Shown here: positions 13,587-62,904 of the stretch, piece after piece
Numbering within the stretch: the first letter of the stretch is position 1
Layout of the letters: each line of letters begins with the position of its first letter
Origin: Acidimicrobium ferrooxidans
GTDB lineage: Bacteria > Actinomycetota > Geothermincolia > Fen-727 > Anoxymicrobiaceae
Length of the DNA: 64,000 nt
NCBI GenBank assembly: GCA_020723485.1
Contig: DYIU01000001.1
Coordinates: 62,001-126,000 of the forward strand
Reading direction: 5' to 3'
The notes under the pieces: generated by a model
Told to the model about the DNA's origin: nothing
The model's input: the letters and a program-made list of their open reading frames with translations, nothing else
Database searches by the model: none
Position numbers and translations under genes: made by a program

Positions 13587-13701
13587 GGGGTCAGACCACT
13601 TTCGTTCCATTAGCAACACCAGTAACATCCGCAACGCTAACATCGATGACGTGTTCGCTATGTTGTTAATGTTGCTAATGGAACGAAAGTGGTCTGACCC
13701 C
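13587..13701. repeat. REP-like palindrome, family A (right of repeat-protein gene)
   Basis: Arms GGGGTCAGACCACTTTCG and CGAAAGTGGTCTGACCCC, with the same interior as 11390-11503 apart from a few substitutions and a short indel. Both copies end in CCCCATTCA next to a leftward stop codon. Confidence 0.9.
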
Positions 13702-18495: not shown

Positions 18496-20611
18496 ACCAC
18501 TCGATCTCCTGGGGCCGTTGTTCTTCGCCGCGGTGGCCGCGGCGACCTGGGGCCCGGCGCTCTTCGCAAACGGGTTCGTCCTGCTCGGCGACATGGTCTT
18601 CACCCCGGCGATGCACCCCCCGGCGTCCCTTCTCGGGCCTGTGTCGGGGACCGTCAACGTGACCCTGGTCTACAACGCGGCGTGGCTGTTATCGCGGGTG
18701 ACGGGGGCGGTCCTGCTCCAGAAGCTCGTGCTCCTGGGCATGGGTTTCCTGCCCGGCTACCTGATGTACCGTTTCGTGCCCTGCCGCGGCAGGGCGGCAA
18801 GGCTTTTCGCCGGCACCGTCTACCAGGTGAACCCCTTCGTCTACACCCGCATGCTCATGGGCCAGTGGGGCCTCCTGCTCGCGTACGCGCTCCTCCCCGT
18901 GGCCGTGGCTTCTACGTTGAAGACGGTCCGCGAGCCGGGGGCGGGCCGGTGCGCGAAGACCGCGCTCTGGCTTTCGCTCATATGCGTACTGAGCCTGCAC
19001 ATGGGAGCCATCGCTCTGCTCGCGTGCCTGGTGGCGGCGCTCTTCGAGATGGTCTCCAGGCGCCCCGCGGGCCGGGCGGTCGTCGCGCTCGCCGCCGTCT
19101 TCCTCATCTTTGCGCTCATCTCAGCGTTCTGGCTCGTCCCCGCCCTGCGCGGGAGCGAGACCACGGCGTCGATAGACAGGACCGACCTGGAGGTCTTCAG
19201 GACCTCCTCAACCTCGCGGGCGGGCACCTGGCTCTCGGTCCTCGGCATGTACGGGTACTGGAAAGCGCAGATAGACTCGTTGATGCCAAGGGGCTACGTG
19301 CCGGCCTGGCCCGCGCTCGCAATCGGGTTCATACTGCTCGCGCTCTACGGGTTCTGGAGCTTCCGGAAGGACCCGGAGCTCCGCCCGCTTGTCCGGGCGA
19401 TGCTGGTGCTCGGAGTGCTGGGCTTCTTCCTGTCCCTGGGCTCGAGGGCGCCCGTCACGGGACCCTTGTTCACGTTCCTCTATGACCACGTCGGTCTCTT
19501 CAGGCTGTTCCGCGAACCGCAGAAGTTCGTCGCCCTGCTCGCCCTCCCCTATACCGTGCTGGGCGGTCTCGCTGTCGACCGCCTCTCGGGGGGGCGCGCA
19601 AGTGAAACGCAACAAAATGACCTGACCCCGATTTTGCGGGTGGTGCCCGCGCTCCTCATAGCACTGGTCTGCTTCTACTCGTTCATGATGTTCGGGGGGC
19701 TCTGGGGCCAGGCGCGGGCCGTATCCTACCCGAAGTCATGGGAGAAGGCGCAGGAGATGCTCGAGCGTGACGCCGGGGACTGGCGCGCCCTTTACCTGCC
19801 TCCTTACTGGTTCATGCGGTTCGACTTCACGGGCCACCAGCAGACCATCACATCGCCCATGCCGTTCTATTTCACCAACCGGTACGTACAGCTGAACACG
19901 CTGCAGGTCGGCCCCGTCCAGATAGACAGTCAACGCATAGACCGCTACGTGCAGGCGGCCCTCGACTCCGCCAGGCAGAACGGCAACCTCGGGGCGATGC
20001 TCGCGCCGCTCAACGTCAGGTACGTCGTGATGCCCCTCATCGACGCAAGTACCAGCTACGCGTTCGTGGAGCAGCAGGAAGACCTAAAGGTAGTGCGGCG
20101 CTGGAGCGACCTGGTCCTGCTCAAGAACCGGGTGCGCACCAGCCACCTGGGGCTCGCGAGCGCCGAGGGCTCATGGCGCTCACTCGCGCAGCTCGGGAAG
20201 CTGGTCCGCGGTGGAGACCTGCTGGGGTCCTACCTGCCCAGGGGCAGCCGGACGGAGATACCGGAGGCGGAGGGCGAGCCTGTCGCCCACGAGGACTCCC
20301 GCGCCGGGACTAGGGTCGAGGCCGAGCTCCCGGGCGAAGACGACGTTCCATCGACACTGCTCTTGAGCGAGACTTACGACCCGGGCTGGAAGCTCGACGG
20401 CTCGACGCCCGCGGTCCAGGCCGGGGTGACGTGCGCGTTCCCGCTGGACGACGTCGGCGGCGAGACGGTGCGCATTGCCTACGACGACTCCCTGGTTGTC
20501 GCGTGTTACGTCGCGAGCGCCGCCGGACTGCTATTATGTGTAGTGCTCCTTGCGCTCGACGCGTTCAGGTCGAGGCGCGACGAAGACGGTCAGAAGGAAC
20601 CAGCCCAGTGA
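18473..20611 (+). CDS. Large AftD-like/GT-C membrane protein with an in-frame REP segment
   Basis: 712 residues. Around twelve membrane helices occupy residues 10-415 and the last helix lies near residue 680. The LLGDMVFTP loop and VYQVNPFVYTRMLMGQW segment resemble the membrane domain of alpha-(1->3)-arabinofuranosyltransferase-like proteins. A periplasmic domain of about 250 residues lies between helices. Codons at 19604-19635 derive from a REP-like repeat and encode ETQQNDLTPIL in a loop between helices. The TTG start overlaps the upstream GT4 gene. It probably transfers polyprenyl-linked sugars outside the membrane. Confidence 0.7.
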   Translation: MAKTQRDKPLDLLGPLFFAAVAAATWGPALFANGFVLLGDMVFTPAMHPPASLLGPVSGTVNVTLVYNAAWLLSRVTGAVLLQKLVLLGMGFLPGYLMYRFVPCRGRAARLFAGTVYQVNPFVYTRMLMGQWGLLLAYALLPVAVASTLKTVREPGAGRCAKTALWLSLICVLSLHMGAIALLACLVAALFEMVSRRPAGRAVVALAAVFLIFALISAFWLVPALRGSETTASIDRTDLEVFRTSSTSRAGTWLSVLGMYGYWKAQIDSLMPRGYVPAWPALAIGFILLALYGFWSFRKDPELRPLVRAMLVLGVLGFFLSLGSRAPVTGPLFTFLYDHVGLFRLFREPQKFVALLALPYTVLGGLAVDRLSGGRASETQQNDLTPILRVVPALLIALVCFYSFMMFGGLWGQARAVSYPKSWEKAQEMLERDAGDWRALYLPPYWFMRFDFTGHQQTITSPMPFYFTNRYVQLNTLQVGPVQIDSQRIDRYVQAALDSARQNGNLGAMLAPLNVRYVVMPLIDASTSYAFVEQQEDLKVVRRWSDLVLLKNRVRTSHLGLASAEGSWRSLAQLGKLVRGGDLLGSYLPRGSRTEIPEAEGEPVAHEDSRAGTRVEAELPGEDDVPSTLLLSETYDPGWKLDGSTPAVQAGVTCAFPLDDVGGETVRIAYDDSLVVACYVASAAGLLLCVVLLALDAFRSRRDEDGQKEPAQ
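19604..19635. repeat. REP-like half element, family B, inside a coding sequence
   Basis: GAAACGCAACAAAATGACCT followed by GACCCCGATTTTGC matches the family B elements near 50.1, 58.4 and 61.8 kb. The reading frame of the membrane protein passes through it without a stop. Confidence 0.8.
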
Positions 20612-49563: not shown

Positions 49564-50763
49564 CTAGAAGCAGCCGAGCTGGCAGTGGACTATCTTTATC
49601 TGGAGCAGGTCGAGGGCGCGCCCGACCTCGGGTATCGGGACCCCCAGCTCGCCCGCGAGCTCCTGGGCCCGCTCGCACGCTATCTTCCCCTCGACGGCCG
49701 CCTCTTTTACAGCGTCCAGCACTTCCTGTGAGATGTCTTCGGGCATCTGCCCACCCCCGGTTCTCGATAGAGCCATGTCGTACACCTTTTCGAACGCGCG
49801 GAGCCGCCCGGCGTCGTCACTGTATATGAGGACCTTGGCCGCCCCTGTGGCCGCCTTGAGGTCCGCCTCGAGCCCCAGCTCGCTCACGCCCTCGAAGGCT
49901 GGGCCGAGCTCAACCAGCACGATGTCAGCCTTCCTTGCGGGCGGCACAAGCCGCTCGAGAGGCTCCTCGAGCAGGAGGACGGTCAGTCCGGGCCCGCCGG
50001 CTTCGGCACCCGCGCCGCCTGGAGGGCCCCCGCCCGGGCCCGCGAGGGCAACCGCTCCTGGGGGCAGGCCCCCGGCTGAGCTCATGTGCTCGGCAAGCCT
50101 GGTCCTTCCCGCGGTCCCGTCGACCATGACCGCACCCGAAAATGCAACAAAGTGACCTGACCCCGATGTTGCAATTCCGGCGGCGCGCTTCATGTCCTCC
50201 GGGGAGTTTATGTTGAGGAGGAGCCTGCCGGTGGGGTCGAACCGCTTCATCTCCTCCCAGGGTATCTCCCTGGTGGCCACCTGGCCGAAGAAGTCGGTGA
50301 CCTTGAGGTTGCCCTCACCGAGCTGCCGGGCGATGACGGGCTCGCAAGACCGGCGGTACGCGGCGTGCAGGGGCTCCAGGCCCTTCGGCGTGCGCGGCAC
50401 GGCGACCTGGTACCCCTCCAGGCACTCCACGACGTAGGCCGCGGCCTCCCGGTTGACGAACGGCATGTCGCAGGCGAGCACGAAATTCTCATCCGTATGG
50501 GAGAGCCTGAGCCCGCTCAGGATGGCCCCTAGCGGGCCTTTCCCGGCGACCGGCTCCTCGGCCACCCGTACATTACCGGATTCGTACGGCGCGAGCTGCG
50601 AGACCCGGCCGGCGTTCACTACCAGGATGATCTCGTCGAAAAGGCCATCGAGTGCCTCGAGCTGTATGTCCAGCACCCTGCGGCCGGCCACTTCCATGAA
50701 CGCCTTGTCACCCGGCATCCGGGTGCTCTGGCCGCCCGCCAGGATGATGCCGGTCGCCATCAT
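49564..50763 (-). CDS. mobA: MobA-type nucleotidyltransferase with extra C-terminal domains
   Basis: 399 residues. Residues 1-195 are a complete MobA: GIILAGGQSTRMPGDKAFME, then VLACDMPFVN and LLNINSPEDM. Family B REP sequence (50138-50177) encodes the linker GIATSGSGHFVAFSG. Next comes a MobB-like but degenerate nucleotide-binding region (VMVDGTAGRTRLAEHM, ADIVLVELG) with a Gly/Pro-rich insert. The last 60 residues are a helical domain ending IKIVHCQLGCF. It would attach GMP or CMP to molybdopterin. ATG overlaps the fdhD stop (ATGA). Confidence 0.85.
   Translation of the reverse strand: MMATGIILAGGQSTRMPGDKAFMEVAGRRVLDIQLEALDGLFDEIILVVNAGRVSQLAPYESGNVRVAEEPVAGKGPLGAILSGLRLSHTDENFVLACDMPFVNREAAAYVVECLEGYQVAVPRTPKGLEPLHAAYRRSCEPVIARQLGEGNLKVTDFFGQVATREIPWEEMKRFDPTGRLLLNINSPEDMKRAAGIATSGSGHFVAFSGAVMVDGTAGRTRLAEHMSSAGGLPPGAVALAGPGGGPPGGAGAEAGGPGLTVLLLEEPLERLVPPARKADIVLVELGPAFEGVSELGLEADLKAATGAAKVLIYSDDAGRLRAFEKVYDMALSRTGGGQMPEDISQEVLDAVKEAAVEGKIACERAQELAGELGVPIPEVGRALDLLQIKIVHCQLGCF
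50138..50177. repeat. REP-like element, family B, inside mobA
   Basis: AAAATGCAACAAAGTGACCT, then GACCCCGATGTTGCA; TGCAACA and TGTTGCA are inverted. It is in frame and encodes a flexible linker of mobA. Confidence 0.8.
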
Positions 50764-54810: not shown

Positions 54811-55506
54811 CTATCGCAATACCATACCACGGTAGCCCGCTGACTGCGGCTCGAGGTCACCCGCGTCGGCGAAGCTGTAGTAGGCGCTGTCGGCCCCGAT
54901 TATCACGTGGTCGAGCAGCGGGATGCCGAGGATGCGGCCGACCTCCTCGAGGCGGCCGGTTATGCGGCGGTCCTCGTCGGAGGGGACCGGGTCGCCGCTG
55001 GGGTGGTTGTGCGCGAAGATAACCCCCGAAGCGGCGCTGCGCACGGCCGGACGGAACGCCTCGCGGGGGTGGACTATGCTGGCCGTGAGCGTGCCCCGCG
55101 ATATTACCTCTGTGCGGATGAGCCGGAGCTTGGCGTCGACCATGGCGCAGCTGAAGACCTCTATCCTCTCGGAGACCATCCAGGGCCAGAACGCGTTGTA
55201 GACGTCACAGCTCGAGGACATGCGCGCGCCGGGCACGACCCCCGACAGGGCCCTGCGGCCGAGCTCTACCGCGGCCACCACCGACGCCGCCCTGGCCGGC
55301 CCGATGCCCGGGAGCCGCCGCAGCTCCTCGAACGAGACCTCGGCAAGGCCCCGCGCGCCGCCCGCCGAGTCGATGACCGCCCGGGAGAGGGCCTCGGCGC
55401 ACGAGCCGCCCGAGATGACGAGAGAAAGGAGCTGGACGTCGGTGAGAGAGCCGGCTCCTCCGGCTGCCAGCCTGCCGCGGTTTGCCGTGTTCTCGCTGTT
55501 TCCCAA
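54811..55506 (-). CDS. radC: RadC-family JAB/MPN-domain protein
   Basis: 231 residues. The N-terminal helix-hairpin-helix RRLPGIGPARAASVVAAVEL is followed by the JAMM metal site IFAHNHPSGDPVPSDED and LLDHVIIGADSAYYSF. RadC proteins are widespread; their cellular role is not settled. It starts at TTG 55506. Confidence 0.92.
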   Translation of the reverse strand: MGNSENTANRGRLAAGGAGSLTDVQLLSLVISGGSCAEALSRAVIDSAGGARGLAEVSFEELRRLPGIGPARAASVVAAVELGRRALSGVVPGARMSSSCDVYNAFWPWMVSERIEVFSCAMVDAKLRLIRTEVISRGTLTASIVHPREAFRPAVRSAASGVIFAHNHPSGDPVPSDEDRRITGRLEEVGRILGIPLLDHVIIGADSAYYSFADAGDLEPQSAGYRGMVLR

Positions 55507-55620
55507 GTAGACCCCCGTAACGCCGACCCGGAGCCGGCCTCACTCGAACTAGCAATACAAGCAAATGGATTGTAGCACAGGAGTCGGACAGTAAAAAGGT
55601 CCAGTCTCGATACGGGCGGC

Positions 55621-57150
55621 TCAGGTGTTGAGCTCGCGGTATACCGGGGCCAGGCCCGCGTAGAGGCGCTTGAAGCTCGCGAACAGCTCGTCGTAGACGA
55701 CCTTGCTGGAGGGCTCGGGTTCGAAGGACTTCCTCACCTTGACCACTTCCTCGACGGCGCGGTAGTCCTTGAACATGCCCAGGGCGAGCGGGACCACCAG
55801 GGCCGCTCCAAGCGCGCCCGCGTCCTGCGCGCCCACGACGGGCTCTATCCGCCTTCCCGTGACGTCGGCGAAGATCTGCATCCAGGCGTCGGACTGCGCG
55901 CCGCCGCCTATGGCACGCACCGTGGGGCAGGGAAGTCCCTTGGTCGCCGCCGCCTCGAAGCACCAGCGGAAGTTCATCGCAACGCCCTCGTACACCGAGC
56001 GCAGCATGTCCTCGCGCTTGTGGTCCAGGTTGAGGTTCACGAATCCTCCCCGGAGGGAGTTGTCGGTCACCGGGGCCCTCTCGCCGAACATCCACGGCGT
56101 GAATATGAGCCGGCGAGAGCCGGGGGGCACGCCGCTTATCACCCTGTCCAGCTCGGCGTAGATGCCGCCCAAGGGTTCCGCCCGCCTGCGCTCCTCCTCA
56201 GTGATGAGCTGTTCGGTGGCCCACTTCAGGCAGCCTCCGGCGGTGATGAGCTCCGCGGTGAGAAGCCACATTGACGGGTCGGCCGCCGCGATAGAGGCCA
56301 TCCCGAACTTGCCCAGGTTGACCGATTTCTCGGAATGGATGAGGAGCAGGCCCGATGTGCCGATGCTTATTACGCACTCGCCGTGCTCCATCGCGCCGCC
56401 GCCTATCATTGCGGCGGGCGCGTCTCCCATCCCGCTCACCACGGGGGTCCCGGGCGCGAGGCCCATCTGCTTGGCGGCCGCTTCCGTGAGCCCGCCCGCG
56501 ACCTCGGCGGACTTCGTGACCGGTGGCAGCTTACCGGCGTCGCCGCCCAGCACTTTTATCATGAGGCTCGACCAGCCGCGGGTCTTCTTGTCCATGTATC
56601 CCGTGACCGACGCGGCGGTCTGGTCGGAGTTGAACGCGCCGGTGGCCCTGTAGACAATGTATCCCTTCACGTCCAGGAAGACGTGCGTGCGCTCGAATAT
56701 CTCGGGAGCCTCCTCCTCAACCCACTTGTACTTGCACATGACGTCCTTGCCCGAGGGGACTACCCCGACGGCGGCCATCAGCACGCGCCTGCCGCCCAGG
56801 CGCCTCACCACGCGGTCAGCCTGTGCCTGGGCCCGGGAGTCCATCCATATCATGCAGTTGCACAGCGGCTCGCCGTCGCCGGTCACCGGGAGCACTCCCA
56901 GCATCTGGGAGGCGAACGAGAGGCCGAGGACGTCGGAGGGGTCTATTCCGGTACGCTCCACGAGGCGCCGGGTGGTGCCCACGACGGCGTCCCACCAGGT
57001 CTCGGGCTCCTGCTCTGCGCAGTGGTCCCGCGGGAACATCACCTCGTAGGGCTCGAACTCGGTCGCCACTATGTTTCCCTCGGGGGTCGCCAGCACGGCC
57101 TTGCACCCTCCCGTGCCGACGTCGTAGCCGAACATGTACTGCTCGCTCAC
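55621..57150 (-). CDS. FGGY-family carbohydrate kinase (xylulokinase-like)
   Basis: 509 residues. FGYDVGTGGCKAVLATPEG is the N-terminal phosphate-binding loop. The catalytic base Asp lies in MIWMDSRAQAQ/GMGDAPAAMIGGGA. The second FGGY domain has VRAIGGGAQSDAWMQIFADV. GTG 57150 lies 4 bases after GAGGAGGTAG, and ychF ends 10 bases upstream. It phosphorylates a pentulose or related polyol; no sugar operon is nearby to indicate which. Confidence 0.88.
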   Translation of the reverse strand: MSEQYMFGYDVGTGGCKAVLATPEGNIVATEFEPYEVMFPRDHCAEQEPETWWDAVVGTTRRLVERTGIDPSDVLGLSFASQMLGVLPVTGDGEPLCNCMIWMDSRAQAQADRVVRRLGGRRVLMAAVGVVPSGKDVMCKYKWVEEEAPEIFERTHVFLDVKGYIVYRATGAFNSDQTAASVTGYMDKKTRGWSSLMIKVLGGDAGKLPPVTKSAEVAGGLTEAAAKQMGLAPGTPVVSGMGDAPAAMIGGGAMEHGECVISIGTSGLLLIHSEKSVNLGKFGMASIAAADPSMWLLTAELITAGGCLKWATEQLITEEERRRAEPLGGIYAELDRVISGVPPGSRRLIFTPWMFGERAPVTDNSLRGGFVNLNLDHKREDMLRSVYEGVAMNFRWCFEAAATKGLPCPTVRAIGGGAQSDAWMQIFADVTGRRIEPVVGAQDAGALGAALVVPLALGMFKDYRAVEEVVKVRKSFEPEPSSKVVYDELFASFKRLYAGLAPVYRELNT

Positions 57151-57160
57151 GTCTACCTCC

Positions 57161-58255
57161 TCACGTCGCGAACTTGAAATGGATGACGTCGCCGTCGTGG
57201 ACCACGTACTCGCGGCCTTCCACCCGCAGCGCCCCACCGTCACGCGCCGCGTGGAAACTGCCGCACCTCACGAAGTCGTCCTGGTGGACCACCTCGGCTT
57301 TCACGAATCCCTTCTCGAAGTCCGTGTGTATCCGGCCGGCCGCAGACGCCGCGCTGGAGCCCTCGGGTATGGGCCACGACCTGCACTCGTTGGAGTCGAT
57401 GGAGAAGAACGTTATGAGGCCGAGCAGCTCGAAGCCGGCCCGCGCTATCCGCGCCAGGCTCTCCTCCTCGATGCCCATCTCGGCCTCGAACTCCGCCGCT
57501 TCCTCGGGCTCGAGCTCGGCGAGCTCGGCTTCGGTCTCCGCGTTGGCGACCAGGACGGGGAAGCCACGCTCGGCGGCCCACTCCCGGATGCCGGCCTCAT
57601 GCTTCGCGGCGCCGCCGGGCGACTCTCCGACGTTCAGGACCACCATAGTGGGCTTCAGGCTCAGCAGGCCCGTCTCCAGGGTGCAGTTCGCCTGGAGCTT
57701 GAGCGCCCTGTCGCGGTCGATCAGGCACTCGCCGCCGATGAGCTCCTCGAGGCCCGCCAGCGCCTCGGCCCGCGCCGTCTTGTCGCGTGCTCCGCTCTTG
57801 GCCGCCTGCCTTGCCTTCGATATCTCGCGGCCCAGTATCTCCAGGTCCGCGAGCAGGAGCTCTGTCTCGATGAGCTCCGCGTCCCGCACCGGGTCTATGC
57901 CGCCCGTTACGTGGGCTACACCCCCGGCCTCGAACGCCCGCACCACGTGAACCAGGGCGTCGACCTCGCGTATGTTGGCGAGGAACTTGTTGCCCAGGCC
58001 TTCGCCCTTGCTCGCGCCCTCCACGAGCCCCGCGATGTCCACGAAGCTCACCGTCGCGGGGACCCGGCGGTCGCAGCCGGCGAGGTCCGCCACCCTGTCC
58101 AGGCGGGGGTCCGGGACGGGGACGACGCCTACGTTAGGCTCCACGGTGGTAAAGGGGTAATCCGCCACGAGCGCGCCGCACCTTGAGAGCGCGTTGAACA
58201 GCGTGGTCTTGCCGGCGTTGGGGAGGCCGACTATTCCGACCTTGAGTGAGCTCAT
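57161..58255 (-). CDS. ychF: YchF/OLA1 family P-loop ATPase
   Basis: 364 residues, the usual length. [20 protein letters not shown] is the P-loop, and [11 protein letters not shown] carries the N-x-x-E motif that gives ATP preference. [20 protein letters not shown] is the G3 region and the C-terminal TGS domain ends [14 protein letters not shown]. It binds ribosomes in other bacteria. ATG 58255 follows GGGAGGTTCGGAGC. Confidence 0.96.
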
Positions 58256-58384
58256 GCTCCGAACCTCCCTCCGAGGAGCGCGCTTTTCAGGCTCAAGCCT
58301 ACTACAGAGCGAGCTCCAGTTGGAGTCCGCCGGGTCCAAATCCCGGGACGGCTGTATAATATGCCGGGAAATCCGGTTGCGTCA

Positions 58385-58416
58385 GAAAAACGCAACAAAG
58401 TGACCTGACCCCATTT
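58385..58416. repeat. REP-like element, family B
   Basis: AAAAACGCAACAAAGTGACC then TGACCCCATTTGTG. It lies directly upstream of the selenoprotein ribosome site. Confidence 0.7.
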
Positions 58417-58434
58417 GTGCGGCGAGGAGGGGGA

Positions 58435-59355
58435 ATGAGTACGGGCGACGTTAAGAAGCTCTCTGCGACGGCCCGCTGGAGGCTGGTCCGCTACGTCAAC
58501 TGAAGCCAGGCGAGCTTCGGTACCGTCGTGGACGGTACGGGGGAAAGCGACCGTGGCCTGATGAGGCCTGCCTGCCCTCTGGAGGGCGGGGCTGTCAGCA
58601 TGGGCTCGACGTGCGGCGTGGTCTCCGGGGGCTGCCTCGCTCTCGCGCTGCATTTCGATGACGAGGTCGCTTCACGCGACCCGGAGAAGGCGGCCGTGCT
58701 CTACGACCGGATGCGCACGTACACGCGGTGGTTCGAGACCGAATTCGGCAGCACCATCTGCAGGGAGCGCTCCGGGGTCGAATTCAACCGTCTGCCCGGG
58801 CTGGTCGACTACCTCTTCACCGGGAAGTTCCTGACCCGCTGCGTGGCCCACGTGGGCCCCGCGGTAGAGCATGTTGTCGAGATGTGCTCGCGGCCCCTGG
58901 AGGGTGCGGGCACTGAGGCGAAAGGCGGATACTGCGCGGCGCCCGTGATACGGCGCCTCAGCGGCGAGGGGGATGACGCCGGCCTGCTGGAGCGGGTGTC
59001 CGTGGCGCTCGACGGCGGCATCGGCCTGAGCGGAGGCCTCTGCGGCGCCCTCGCGGGAGCGCTGATGCTCATAGGGGGGCGCTACGGCGCCGACCCCAGG
59101 GAATCCCTTTTCCGCGGCACGCTCGTCCCCACCCTCAAGGGACACGTGAACATGTACAGGCGCCTGGACCGTCCGGAGCTGTGGTCGTTAGGAGGCCCGC
59201 TCGCCAGGGGATTCAGGAAAGAGTTCGGCTCCATGGAGTGCCGCGAGATAACCGGCCGCACATTCGAAACCGCGGGCGAACTCGAGGATCACATGTCGGG
59301 CTCAGAGGTCTGCGCCCGCATCCAGGACTGGCTGACCTCGAGGCCGCTGTCATAG
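58435..59355 (+). CDS. Duplicated C_GCAxxG_C_C redox protein, predicted selenoprotein (Sec at TGA 58501)
   Basis: 306 residues if the in-frame TGA at 58501 is read as selenocysteine (residue 23). ATG 58435 follows AGGAGGGGGA. Two tandem C_GCAxxG_C_C-type domains are visible. Domain 1 has Sec23 in YVN-U-SQASF (where the family has NC-[AS]QAV), Cys60 in STCGVVSGG and Cys109 in FGSTICRERSG. Domain 2 has Cys167 in GGYCAAPV, Cys203 in GLCGALAGALMLIGG and Cys269 in FGSMECREITG. The TGA sits exactly where the first redox Cys is expected and a SECIS-like hairpin follows. Starting at GTG 58528 instead would delete that position and has no ribosome site. The family is thought to be redox-active; partners are unknown. 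Confidence 0.85.
58520..58538 (+). promoter_or_regulatory. Predicted bacterial SECIS element
   Basis: Perfect stem GTACCGTC/GACGGTAC with loop GTG. The loop starts 24 bases after the TGA and its first base is G. Both match the known constraints on bacterial SECIS hairpins (short apical loop with an early G, within roughly 16-37 bases of UGA). Confidence 0.8.
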
Positions 59356-59533
59356 ACCGGGGTCAGGTCCGTTTCTCGAAGCCAGTGGTGCCCAGCACCA
59401 GCTCAGGAGATGATGACCGGGCCGACCTTATGTTGAAATGGGGGAGGAGGCGTCGCCAGGAGCCCTTGACCGCGCTATATTCAATTTGCCTCACTCCCCC
59501 AATCAACACTTTGAGCCGCGCCTGCCGGGCACG

Positions 59534-61363
59534 TCATTCCCCGCCGCTCCCCGGGGCGCCAGCCAGCGAGGCGAGCGCTTCAGTCAGCTCGCCGGCGGAA
59601 AATACGGGCTGGCATCGCCCGGGAGAGCACACGACCGCGGGAGGTGGGGTGGTATCAGTGTCGATCGGCAGGAAATCCTCCACGGTCTCGAGCCTTACAA
59701 GCTTGCGGGGATTGAACGCGGCGGCAGCCGCGGCTGTTATCTCTTTCTTCAGTTCGTTCGAGCCTTCCGGCGCCACGCGGACTTCGACCAGCCCCTCCAG
59801 GAGCAGCTCGACGGCCAGCGCGTACTCGGCGGCAAAGTAAGTGTACGAGCGGTACTTGTCCGAAAGCGACGCGAGCATTCTCCTTGCCGCATCCTCGAAC
59901 CCGTGCCCCGGGGACAGGGACTCCAGCGCCAGCAGGCAGCGCGCGCAGCTGCCGTTGACCACGACGTCGGGGAGGTCGGTCGGGATATCGCCCAGCACGC
60001 CCGGCACGTCGTCTCCGCCGGCCTCCGGCGGGGCCTCCCGGATCCAGCCCGGGCCCGCCAGGTAGCGCTCCAGCACCAGCCTGCCCATCTCTACCGCCCT
60101 TTCGAGGAAGCGGCCGTCCGTGGTGGCCTGGTACAGGTCTATCATCGCCCTCAGGTAGTTCACCTGGTCGGCGGGCTGGCCCCAGAGCGCCGGTGAGCCA
60201 TCCGGGAGCTCGAAGTAGTGGCACACCCCGGCGCCGTGCCTGAACCCCTCCCGCCATATGAAATCAGCCGAGCGCTCCGCTATCCCCAGCAGCCCCGGGT
60301 CATCGAGGACCGTCGAGGCCAGCGCGAGGGCCGATATCATCTGCGACGTGGAATCGGTATAGATAGTGCGGTCGACTGCGGGCGGCTCCAGGGCTTCCCT
60401 GCCCGCCTCGTCGCGGTGGTAATACTTCTCGTCGGCGTCCTGGCTTCCGAAGAAGCCCCTCTGCTCGTCGTCGAGCAGGCGGCCCAGGACGTAGTCCAGC
60501 GCTCCACGGGCCGTCTCGGAGTAATCGGGCCGGCCGAAGAGCTGTGAAGCTGCAAGGTAAAGGTAGATGAGGGCGGCGTTGTCGGAGAGCATCTTCTCGT
60601 AGTGCGGGGCGCTCCAGTCACGCGCGGTCGCGTACCTGAAGAACCCGCCTTCGACACGGTCATAGAGCTCGCCCATGTTCATCGCGTCCAGCGTCGAGAC
60701 CACGAAAGATCTCAGCGCCTGGCTGCCGGCCCCCAGGTACCGGGCCATCGCGAACTCGAGCGGGCCCACGGGCGGGAACTTCGGGGCCTCCCCCACTCCC
60801 CCGCAACCCCTGTCCCAGGATTCCAGTATCGCCGCCTCGACGTTCGCAGCCGTCGCCGGGTCGACTTCCCCGTCCACTGCCGCGCTCTCCACGAGCTCGC
60901 GCTCCTGGACGGCCGCCGCGGCCGCCTCGACCTCGATCTCGTCACGGCGGTCCCGATACACGGTCGCGAGCCTCTCGAGGAGGCTCTTCATCTGCTCGGG
61001 CGGGGCGTAGGTGAGCCCGGCCACCGCGCGCCCGGACGGCAGGAGGAAAGCGGTCGTGGGCCAGCCGCCCTGGTTGTAGCGCCTGTTGATGTCGGGCCGC
61101 CTGTCGCTGTCGACCCTCACGGGTATGTAATCGCGGTTGACCCTCTCGATGACTTCGGGCTCGGAGTACGAGGTCTCGTCCATGACGTGGCACCAGTGGC
61201 ACCAGACGGCCGATATGGAGAGGAGCACGAGCTTGCCCTCGCGCTCAGCCTCTTCGAAGGCCCCGGCGCCCCAGACGCGCCACTGTATGTCCCCCGCCCT
61301 GTTGGGCCTCGGGCTGAACCTGAACTCTTCCTCACCGCTGTGCGCGGCATCCATGTCGCTCAT
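59534..61363 (-). CDS. DUF255 thioredoxin-fold protein (YyaL/SSP411 type)
   Basis: 609 residues. The N-terminal thioredoxin-like domain has LLSISAVWCHWCHVMDETSY, i.e. CxxC, near residue 55, and GGWPTTAFLLPSG. The rest is an alpha/alpha-barrel with GGFFRYATARDWSAPHYEKM and DNAALIYLYLAAS, as in YyaL and SPATA20 proteins. The role is unknown. ATG 61363 is used; TTG two codons upstream is possible. It converges on the selenoprotein gene across 178 bases, which hold only a short GGGGTCAGGTCC fragment. Confidence 0.9.
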   Translation of the reverse strand: MSDMDAAHSGEEEFRFSPRPNRAGDIQWRVWGAGAFEEAEREGKLVLLSISAVWCHWCHVMDETSYSEPEVIERVNRDYIPVRVDSDRRPDINRRYNQGGWPTTAFLLPSGRAVAGLTYAPPEQMKSLLERLATVYRDRRDEIEVEAAAAAVQERELVESAAVDGEVDPATAANVEAAILESWDRGCGGVGEAPKFPPVGPLEFAMARYLGAGSQALRSFVVSTLDAMNMGELYDRVEGGFFRYATARDWSAPHYEKMLSDNAALIYLYLAASQLFGRPDYSETARGALDYVLGRLLDDEQRGFFGSQDADEKYYHRDEAGREALEPPAVDRTIYTDSTSQMISALALASTVLDDPGLLGIAERSADFIWREGFRHGAGVCHYFELPDGSPALWGQPADQVNYLRAMIDLYQATTDGRFLERAVEMGRLVLERYLAGPGWIREAPPEAGGDDVPGVLGDIPTDLPDVVVNGSCARCLLALESLSPGHGFEDAARRMLASLSDKYRSYTYFAAEYALAVELLLEGLVEVRVAPEGSNELKKEITAAAAAAFNPRKLVRLETVEDFLPIDTDTTPPPAVVCSPGRCQPVFSAGELTEALASLAGAPGSGGE

Positions 61364-61386
61364 CTGCAACCGTTCCCGATATGCGT

Positions 61387-61416
61387 CCGGCGGGGCGCAC
61401 TATGCGGCCCCGCCGG
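61387..61416. repeat. Perfect inverted repeat
   Basis: CCGGCGGGGC, 10-base loop, GCCCCGCCGG, 24 bases upstream of the DUF255 start. There is no T-run on either side, so it is more likely regulatory or structural than a terminator. A second hairpin lies at 61482-61505 (CTGACCGGGGC/GCCCCGTCAG). Confidence 0.55.
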
Positions 61417-61529
61417 GGAAAGGTACTCCTCCCGAGTGCCCGGCAGCAGGAGATGGCACTGGGGGCTGCTCGTGGCTCGATCTGACCGGGGCTTGCGCCC
61501 CGTCAGGCAGCACCCGGGAGGAGGGGCCT

Positions 61530-61685
61530 TCATGATTCTTTTTTCTCTTTCAACTCCGGCCTGGCCCCGCCGCTCTCGCTCCTCATGGACTTCTCCATAT
61601 TCACACAGGGAAACTTCGAGTCCGCGCAGTGCGGGCAGCAGAGACCCTGGCCGGTCGAACTTTTCAAAGACTTGCTCTTGCCCAT
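61530..61685 (-). CDS. Small Cys-rich protein
   Basis: 51 residues: MGKSKSLKSSTGQG, then LCCPHCADSKFPCVN and a Lys/Glu-rich tail ending EKKES. Four Cys in a CCxxC...C pattern could form a zinc knuckle or cluster. AGGGGAAGAAGGAG immediately precedes ATG 61685, a good ribosome site. I do not recognise the family. It lies in an otherwise gene-free 515-base stretch (61370-61884) and is read towards the DUF255 gene. Confidence 0.5.
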   Translation of the reverse strand: MGKSKSLKSSTGQGLCCPHCADSKFPCVNMEKSMRSESGGARPELKEKKES

Positions 61686-61782
61686 CTCCTTCTTCCCCTA
61701 TCGCTTCGACGCGACTTTCGCTTTCGTGGTTTCAGGATACGCCCGGGGTCGTGTAATCGCATTGATAACTATCAATTCAGTA

Positions 61783-61825
61783 GGAAAACGCAACATTGGG
61801 GTCAGGTCACTTTGTTGCGTTTTTA
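61783..61825. repeat. REP-like palindrome, family B (complete)
   Basis: GAAAACGCAACA and TGTTGCGTTTTT flank a GGGGTCAGGTCAC core. Rightward it ends in a T-run and would work as a terminator. It is the complete form of the half elements at 19.6, 50.1 and 58.4 kb. Confidence 0.85.
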
Positions 61826-61884
61826 CCCGGGTGCATATGTCACAATAGAATGTCCCCATTCGAGCCGGACCTCCTGGAGGGCGC

Positions 61885-62904
61885 ATGAGAGAGGCGGGCG
61901 CGGCGGCGCCGGCAAAGATAGTAGCCATATCGGATACCCATTTCGGGGACAGGTCGATGCTGCTTGACGACGCGGAGCTGGTCGACCGGTTCACGGCGGT
62001 CCTCTCCGAGCGGGGGGAGATATCAGAGCTCATCCTGCTGGGTGACATCCTGGACCTTTGGGTGAAGACCCCGGTCCCGGCACTCCGGAAGGCCCATCAT
62101 TTGATCGAAGCACTCTCGCGCCTGGAGAACGTGGAGAAGATAATCTACGTCCCCGGCAACCACGACCACCAGATGTTCCTGGATGCGTTCCGCCTGGAGC
62201 AGGACGTGCGCCTCATGCAGGGAGACCTCACAGCCCCGAAGTTCATGCCGGCGCGGCATTACGGCGAGACTGTCATCAGCGGGCTCGCCGACCCGGGTGC
62301 GCGGCCGCGCTTCTCGATGACGTACCCTTTCCTTGTGCGCAGCGTCGGCGGCAGCGAAGTGGTCTTCGCTCACGGCCACCACCTCGATTTCTACGCGACG
62401 TCACACGGGTGGGCACGAACGTTCTGGCTCGGCCGCCACATCATAAAGAAGCGGCGCCGGAAAGCCACGCTTCACGATATCGAGATGGCTAACATCCCCT
62501 TCTGCGGGGCGATGTCCATGGCCCCCTGGGTCCCCGAGCTGGTCAACGAGGGGCTTCGCTACTACCGGATAATAAGCTTCTTCTCGAAGCTGTTCCGCTC
62601 GGAGAGCCTGCAGGTGTCGCCCCTGCGCGACTCGCTCATAAGGGAGAACTACGAGGAGATATCCCAGCTGCTGCCCCAGCTAGGCCACCCGCGGCCGGCG
62701 TGCTTCATCTACGGGCATACCCACCGGCCCGGGGTCGGCAGCCTCCCGGACAGCGGCGTTGTGATAGCCAACACCGGCTCCTGGACGCACGTGGAAGACG
62801 ACGAAGTACCCACCCGTACCTGGGTGGAGCTGGATGGAGACGTGAAGCTCTACAGGCTCGCGCGCTCCGGCGCCGAACTGCTCGAGGCGGTGGCAGTCGA
62901 ATGA
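61885..62904 (+). CDS. Calcineurin-like metallophosphoesterase
   Basis: 339 residues. All motifs of a dinuclear phosphoesterase are present: [37 protein letters not shown] and [11 protein letters not shown]. The DLW and GNHDHQ arrangement resembles UDP-2,3-diacylglucosamine hydrolase-like enzymes, but the lipid-binding cap differs and the substrate is open. GGAGGGCGC precedes the ATG. It overlaps the DUF6485 frame. Confidence 0.88.

Follow-up and report, generated by a model that had tools for sequence, protein, structure and literature searches.

Selenoproteins of the C_GCAxxG_C_C type have been listed in two forms, form 1 (MGD8741185.1) and form 2 (WP_012158890.1), for which the motif is given as '-' and no position of the selenocysteine (Sec) is stated (PMC13188914, PMC9312934). 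The family is represented by the models TIGR01909 and PF09719, and its NCBI name, 'C-GCAxxG-C-C family (seleno)protein', already recognises Sec; in the text of the GOS paper the family is not mentioned. Acetone induces a PF09719 protein in Desulfococcus biacutus (PMC4103992), and a C_GCAxxG_C_C protein of Clostridium ljungdahlii belongs to a set that also includes a CCG-domain oxidoreductase (PMC5640608). By analogy, both cases give a hint of anaerobic electron transfer, neither protein having been shown to belong to the subfamily described below.

Here, we analyze a member of this family encoded in a stretch of 64,000 nucleotides, referred to as the window. Judged from its sequence and that of its homologues, the gene starting at position 58435 very probably encodes a two-unit C_GCAxxG_C_C selenoprotein in which UGA codon 23 would be decoded as Sec via SelB and a downstream hairpin. 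Both strands of the 64-kb window were scanned for the combination of a Shine-Dalgarno sequence, a start codon, an in-frame TGA, a long downstream frame and a SECIS-like hairpin, and this single locus was returned (Table 1).

Table 1. Features of the selenoprotein locus and copies of the dispersed repeat, in window positions
Feature	Position	Strand	Basis
Ribosome-binding site, Shine-Dalgarno-like AGGAGGGGGA, 5' of ATG 58435	58425..58434	+	sequence
Predicted full selenoprotein coding sequence: 306 residues, Sec at 23, TAG stop	58435..59355	+	frame and PF09719 profile matches
Unit 1, about residues 1-155: Sec23, Cys60 (CGxxxG), Cys109, Cys136	58435..58899	+	alignment, profile match
In-frame TGA, codon 23, read as Sec at the first Cys of C_GCAxxG_C_C	58501..58503	+	Cys or Sec in homologues at this column; one Ala
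Predicted bacterial SECIS hairpin: 8-bp stem GUACCGUC/GACGGUAC, loop GUG	58520..58538	+	stem comparison, recoding null
GTG chosen as start by default ORF caller; in hairpin loop; not conserved as start	58528..58530	+	ORF calling, homologue codons
Unit 2, about residues 156-306: Cys167, Cys203 (CGALAG), Cys269, Cys293; all-Cys	58900..59352	+	alignment, profile match
AAAGTGACCTGACCCC repeat copies	13686-13701, 19614-19629, 50149-50164, 58397-58412	+	
AAAGTGACCTGACCCC repeat copies	13587-13602, 59359-59374, 61798-61813	-	

Reading frame and two-unit organization

The sequence-only reading had described a Shine-Dalgarno sequence, a start at ATG 58435, a TGA at codon 23 and 283 open codons behind it, and all of these are present. 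The TGA is embedded in the peptide YVN-U-SQASF, and the frame continues without a further stop or frameshift up to TAG 59353-59355. The read-through product matches PF09719 over residues 22-149 with 106.3 bits (gathering cut-off 27; E=1.3e-30), and a second match to the same model is located in the C-terminal half, so that both halves of the protein match the family; TIGR01909 is likewise passed, with 53 bits at a curated cut-off of 47.4. The two units are internal paralogues (24% identity, E=9e-7). The motif C...CGxxxG...C...C is found twice, as U23-C60-C109-C136 (TCGVVSG) and as C167-C203-C269-C293 (LCGALAG), with Sec23 of unit 1 occupying the place equivalent to Cys167 of unit 2. This tandem arrangement, and the confinement of Sec to unit 1, add to what had been read from the DNA before. 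In an alignment of 38 sequences, in which Sec was written as C and the one Ala homologue was left out, C23, C60, C109, C136, C167 and C203 are invariant and C269 nearly so. The AlphaFold model of the full protein (pLDDT 93, pTM 0.93) is nearly all helix and places residue 23 at a helix start; a search of the PDB gave neither a relative by sequence nor a fold match (all E above 1).

Mechanical ORF calling picks GTG 58528, within the hairpin loop, exactly as had been anticipated for default gene callers. If this GTG or another internal codon were the true start, the product would be a protein of 275 residues without the first Cys. We consider such a start very improbable, since no Shine-Dalgarno sequence lies 5' of 58528 and GTG at this codon is confined to the window and the homologues L056 and L062, with GTA, CAG, GCA and other codons elsewhere. 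Moreover, the Cys homologues run unbroken through the N-terminus, most of them with a good ribosome-binding site at the upstream ATG. A conserved internal start, which the sequence-only reading had named as an observation that would speak against Sec, was not found among the homologues.

The gene is located within the order radC-like, FGGY-like kinase, ychF-like GTPase, selenoprotein gene, thioredoxin-domain (DUF255-like) protein and phosphoesterase-like (54811-62904). This order is kept over the whole locus in a close relative, the related actinobacterial MAG carrying L062, and not in the other relatives examined, among which no neighbouring partner is conserved across phyla. The window also contains seven copies of a dispersed repeat, AAAGTGACCTGACCCC, with up to 2 mismatches (0.02 copies expected by chance). 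Two inverted copies flank the selenoprotein gene, one some 20 bases ahead of the start codon, the other directly after the stop.

Alternation of selenocysteine and cysteine at one column

A TGA at the identical codon position, accompanied by a comparable hairpin, recurs in 29 further genes spread over several phyla. Within the same class, 20 genes carry TGA (12), TGC or TGT (7) or GCA for Ala (1) at the codon-23 column, other internal stops are absent, and the class-wide alignment shows a conserved peptide on either side of the TGA. Among the named records, obtained by a profile search of contigs, Sec occupies this column in 28 of the 42 readable loci; a truncated record, L083, is unreadable there. 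A search of the genome contigs with the single protein gave no matches, homologues being found by the profile search. The Sec-bearing loci belong to Actinomycetota, to deltaproteobacterial lineages (NCBI Thermodesulfobacteriota, Myxococcota and Pseudomonadota) and to one spirochaete. Ca. Solincola is included among the Sec-form Actinomycetota, and Ca. Geothermincola has Cys. On the maximum-likelihood tree, switching between Sec and Cys requires 7 changes, at least 6 of which are forced by well-supported branches. Such alternation at a single column is the pattern sought by the classic Sec/Cys homology criterion.

The proposal that the TGA coincides with the first Cys of the motif is therefore borne out by homologues with Cys or TGA at the exact column. 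Calling this Cys catalytic, as the sequence-only reading did, goes further than a family without established enzymatic activity allows. The interrupting TGA would also be expected in a pseudogene, where it would represent a nonsense mutation or a sequencing error in front of a decaying frame. This is hardly credible: the same codon is TGA in the 29 genes mentioned above, the flanks are conserved on both sides, the downstream frame is intact and Sec and Cys have been exchanged without other decay.

The single Ala belongs to the two-unit homologue of Ca. Solincola sediminis (L034/L077), which has GCA at the Sec/Cys site and has lost nearby motif residues (YTSATYAN). From its sequence, this homologue suggests that the active site of unit 1 has been lost with unit 2 still intact, and the presence of Ala counts against a function for Sec. 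The listed one-unit paralogues of the window genome and of the class have no TGA. One of them, a C_GCAxxG_C_C paralogue of the same genome outside the window (L123, G000:C3:265000-265377), is free of in-frame stops.

The putative SECIS hairpin and the decoding machinery

The perfect 8-bp hairpin claimed downstream of the TGA is indeed present, as GTACCGTC-GTG-GACGGTAC, and hairpins are retained together with Sec in the homologues. Its stem begins 17 nt past the last base of the TGA and its GUG loop follows 24 nt after the UGA. Each of the Sec genes has a hairpin of 5-8 bp in which G is the first or second loop base and the loop begins 17-26 nt downstream of the UGA; in one Sec-form gene, L060, the perfect stem is only 5 bp long. 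A stem score of at least 6 combined with a G at the loop start in the expected place distinguishes 28 of 29 Sec genes from the non-Sec genes, where it occurs in 2 of 13 (Fisher p=2e-7, with phylogenetic dependence not removed). In the Cys-form L055 an 8-bp stem persists, probably left over from a recent Sec-to-Cys change, the close relatives L050 and L052 of this gene being Sec forms. The Cys-form L063 has a strong hairpin as well, and given these two genes the stem alone is not diagnostic of Sec.

Synonymous recoding of the same peptide equalled the window stem in 11 of 10,000 cases; the corresponding values are 1 of 1500 for L056 and 6 of 1500 for L062. For the deltaproteobacterial genes the recoding null mostly gives about 4-15%, and peptide conservation accounts for part of the hairpin. 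The stem sequences differ by group, being GTACC-based in Actinomycetota and CCTGGAA..TTCCAGG in the deltaproteobacterial genes, with a third type, GATTGCA GGA TGCAATC, in L085. In the actinobacterial set, changes on both sides affect 3 of 7 stem pairs, a result attained in 8 of 500 shuffles; in the deltaproteobacterial set, 5 of 7 pairs never vary, so that covariation within it carries no information. When the 8-bp register of the window is imposed on all actinobacterial Sec genes, 54% of the positions pair, against 87% in a 7-bp register, as the stem of most relatives is 7 bp long and their loop begins one base earlier. An Rfam search of the window found no RNA family.

The genome search proposed in the sequence-only reading yielded selA, selB, selC and selD. 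The genes selD, selA and selB and the tRNA-Sec, with anticodon UCA, form a single adjacent cluster (G000:C5:592965-598104), with profile scores above the cut-off for selB (369 bits, cut-off 242), selA (571, cut-off 268) and selD (355, cut-off 125). Across the class, selA and selB are both present in 27 of 31 genomes, including every TGA-form genome, and one Cys-form genome (G024, 82% complete) has neither. The selD gene itself (L048, G000:C5:592965-593885, outside the window) contains an in-frame TGA near its start, in the context RAGUAAKIG.

Any explanation of the frame needs a sense reading of TGA, and a general reassignment or suppression, e.g., as Trp, Gly or Cys, would provide it independently of SECIS and SelB. 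The probability of this is negligible. TGA terminates 5 of the 7 neighbouring window genes examined and is thus not generally reassigned, the sel cluster is complete, a SECIS-like hairpin accompanies the TGA and Cys is the residue that alternates at the site. In combination, the recurring TGA at a single column, the hairpin and the machinery exclude a pseudogene, a sequencing error and a general reassignment.

Proposed function and relation to described C_GCAxxG_C_C proteins

In the mechanism we propose, SelB together with Sec-tRNA-Sec would bind the hairpin, and UGA codon 23 would direct the incorporation of Sec without termination. In the predicted product of 306 residues, Sec would replace the first Cys of the unit 1 motif, with Cys kept in unit 2. 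Sec23 may form a low-potential selenol/thiol redox centre with Cys60, Cys109 and Cys136, conceivably as part of an anaerobic reaction of the electron-transfer or reductase type. Alternatively, Sec23 might be real but coordinate a metal or an Fe-S cluster that unit 1 holds through its four Cys/Sec residues, as would suit the four strongly conserved Cys/Sec residues of each unit in the 38 sequences. We regard this role as unlikely, although deserving of more weight than the explanations discussed above, since repeated exchange of Sec and Cys suits a redox residue, and Sec is uncommon as a structural metal ligand. With the redox centre as the preferred role, the recurrent exchange points to a probable functional redox role of the first motif Cys in an as yet uncharacterised family, whose chemistry becomes testable. 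At the level of annotation, a gene that would be truncated at GTG 58528 becomes a complete selenoprotein, with its Sec residue and SECIS defined.

Tentatively, and with somewhat less than even confidence, we suggest that the gene represents a two-unit selenoprotein subfamily that is as yet undescribed and whose fold is absent from the PDB. Its Sec-containing unit 1 and all-Cys unit 2 might create an asymmetric redox (or metal) site used for anaerobic electron transfer in Actinomycetota, deltaproteobacterial lineages and spirochaetes.

Two narrower NCBI models were considered and rejected. The HUGP/GUXX-star fusion selenoprotein (NF045501) matches weakly at residues 47-151, its 35.1 bits being far below the cut-off of 325. 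The DVU_1555 family C-GCAxxG-C-C protein (NF045669), a model of 140 positions or about one unit, matches unit 1 at residues 21-114 with 61.8 bits, below its cut-off of 103.

Form 1 and form 2 are predicted selenoproteins of the same Pfam family as the window protein. Form 1, which originates from a deltaproteobacterial worm symbiont, may well belong to the subfamily of the window protein, and it is possible, but not certain, that one of the two forms is the two-unit type with Sec in unit 1. Sec in the C_GCAxxG_C_C family is already known, and the window gene is a new, well-supported member. In comparison with TIGR01909/PF09719, whose cut-offs it exceeds, the window protein consists of two tandem units with Sec in the first and only Cys in the second, and it is this architecture, together with the exact Sec position, the taxonomic spread and the SECIS evidence, that is new here.
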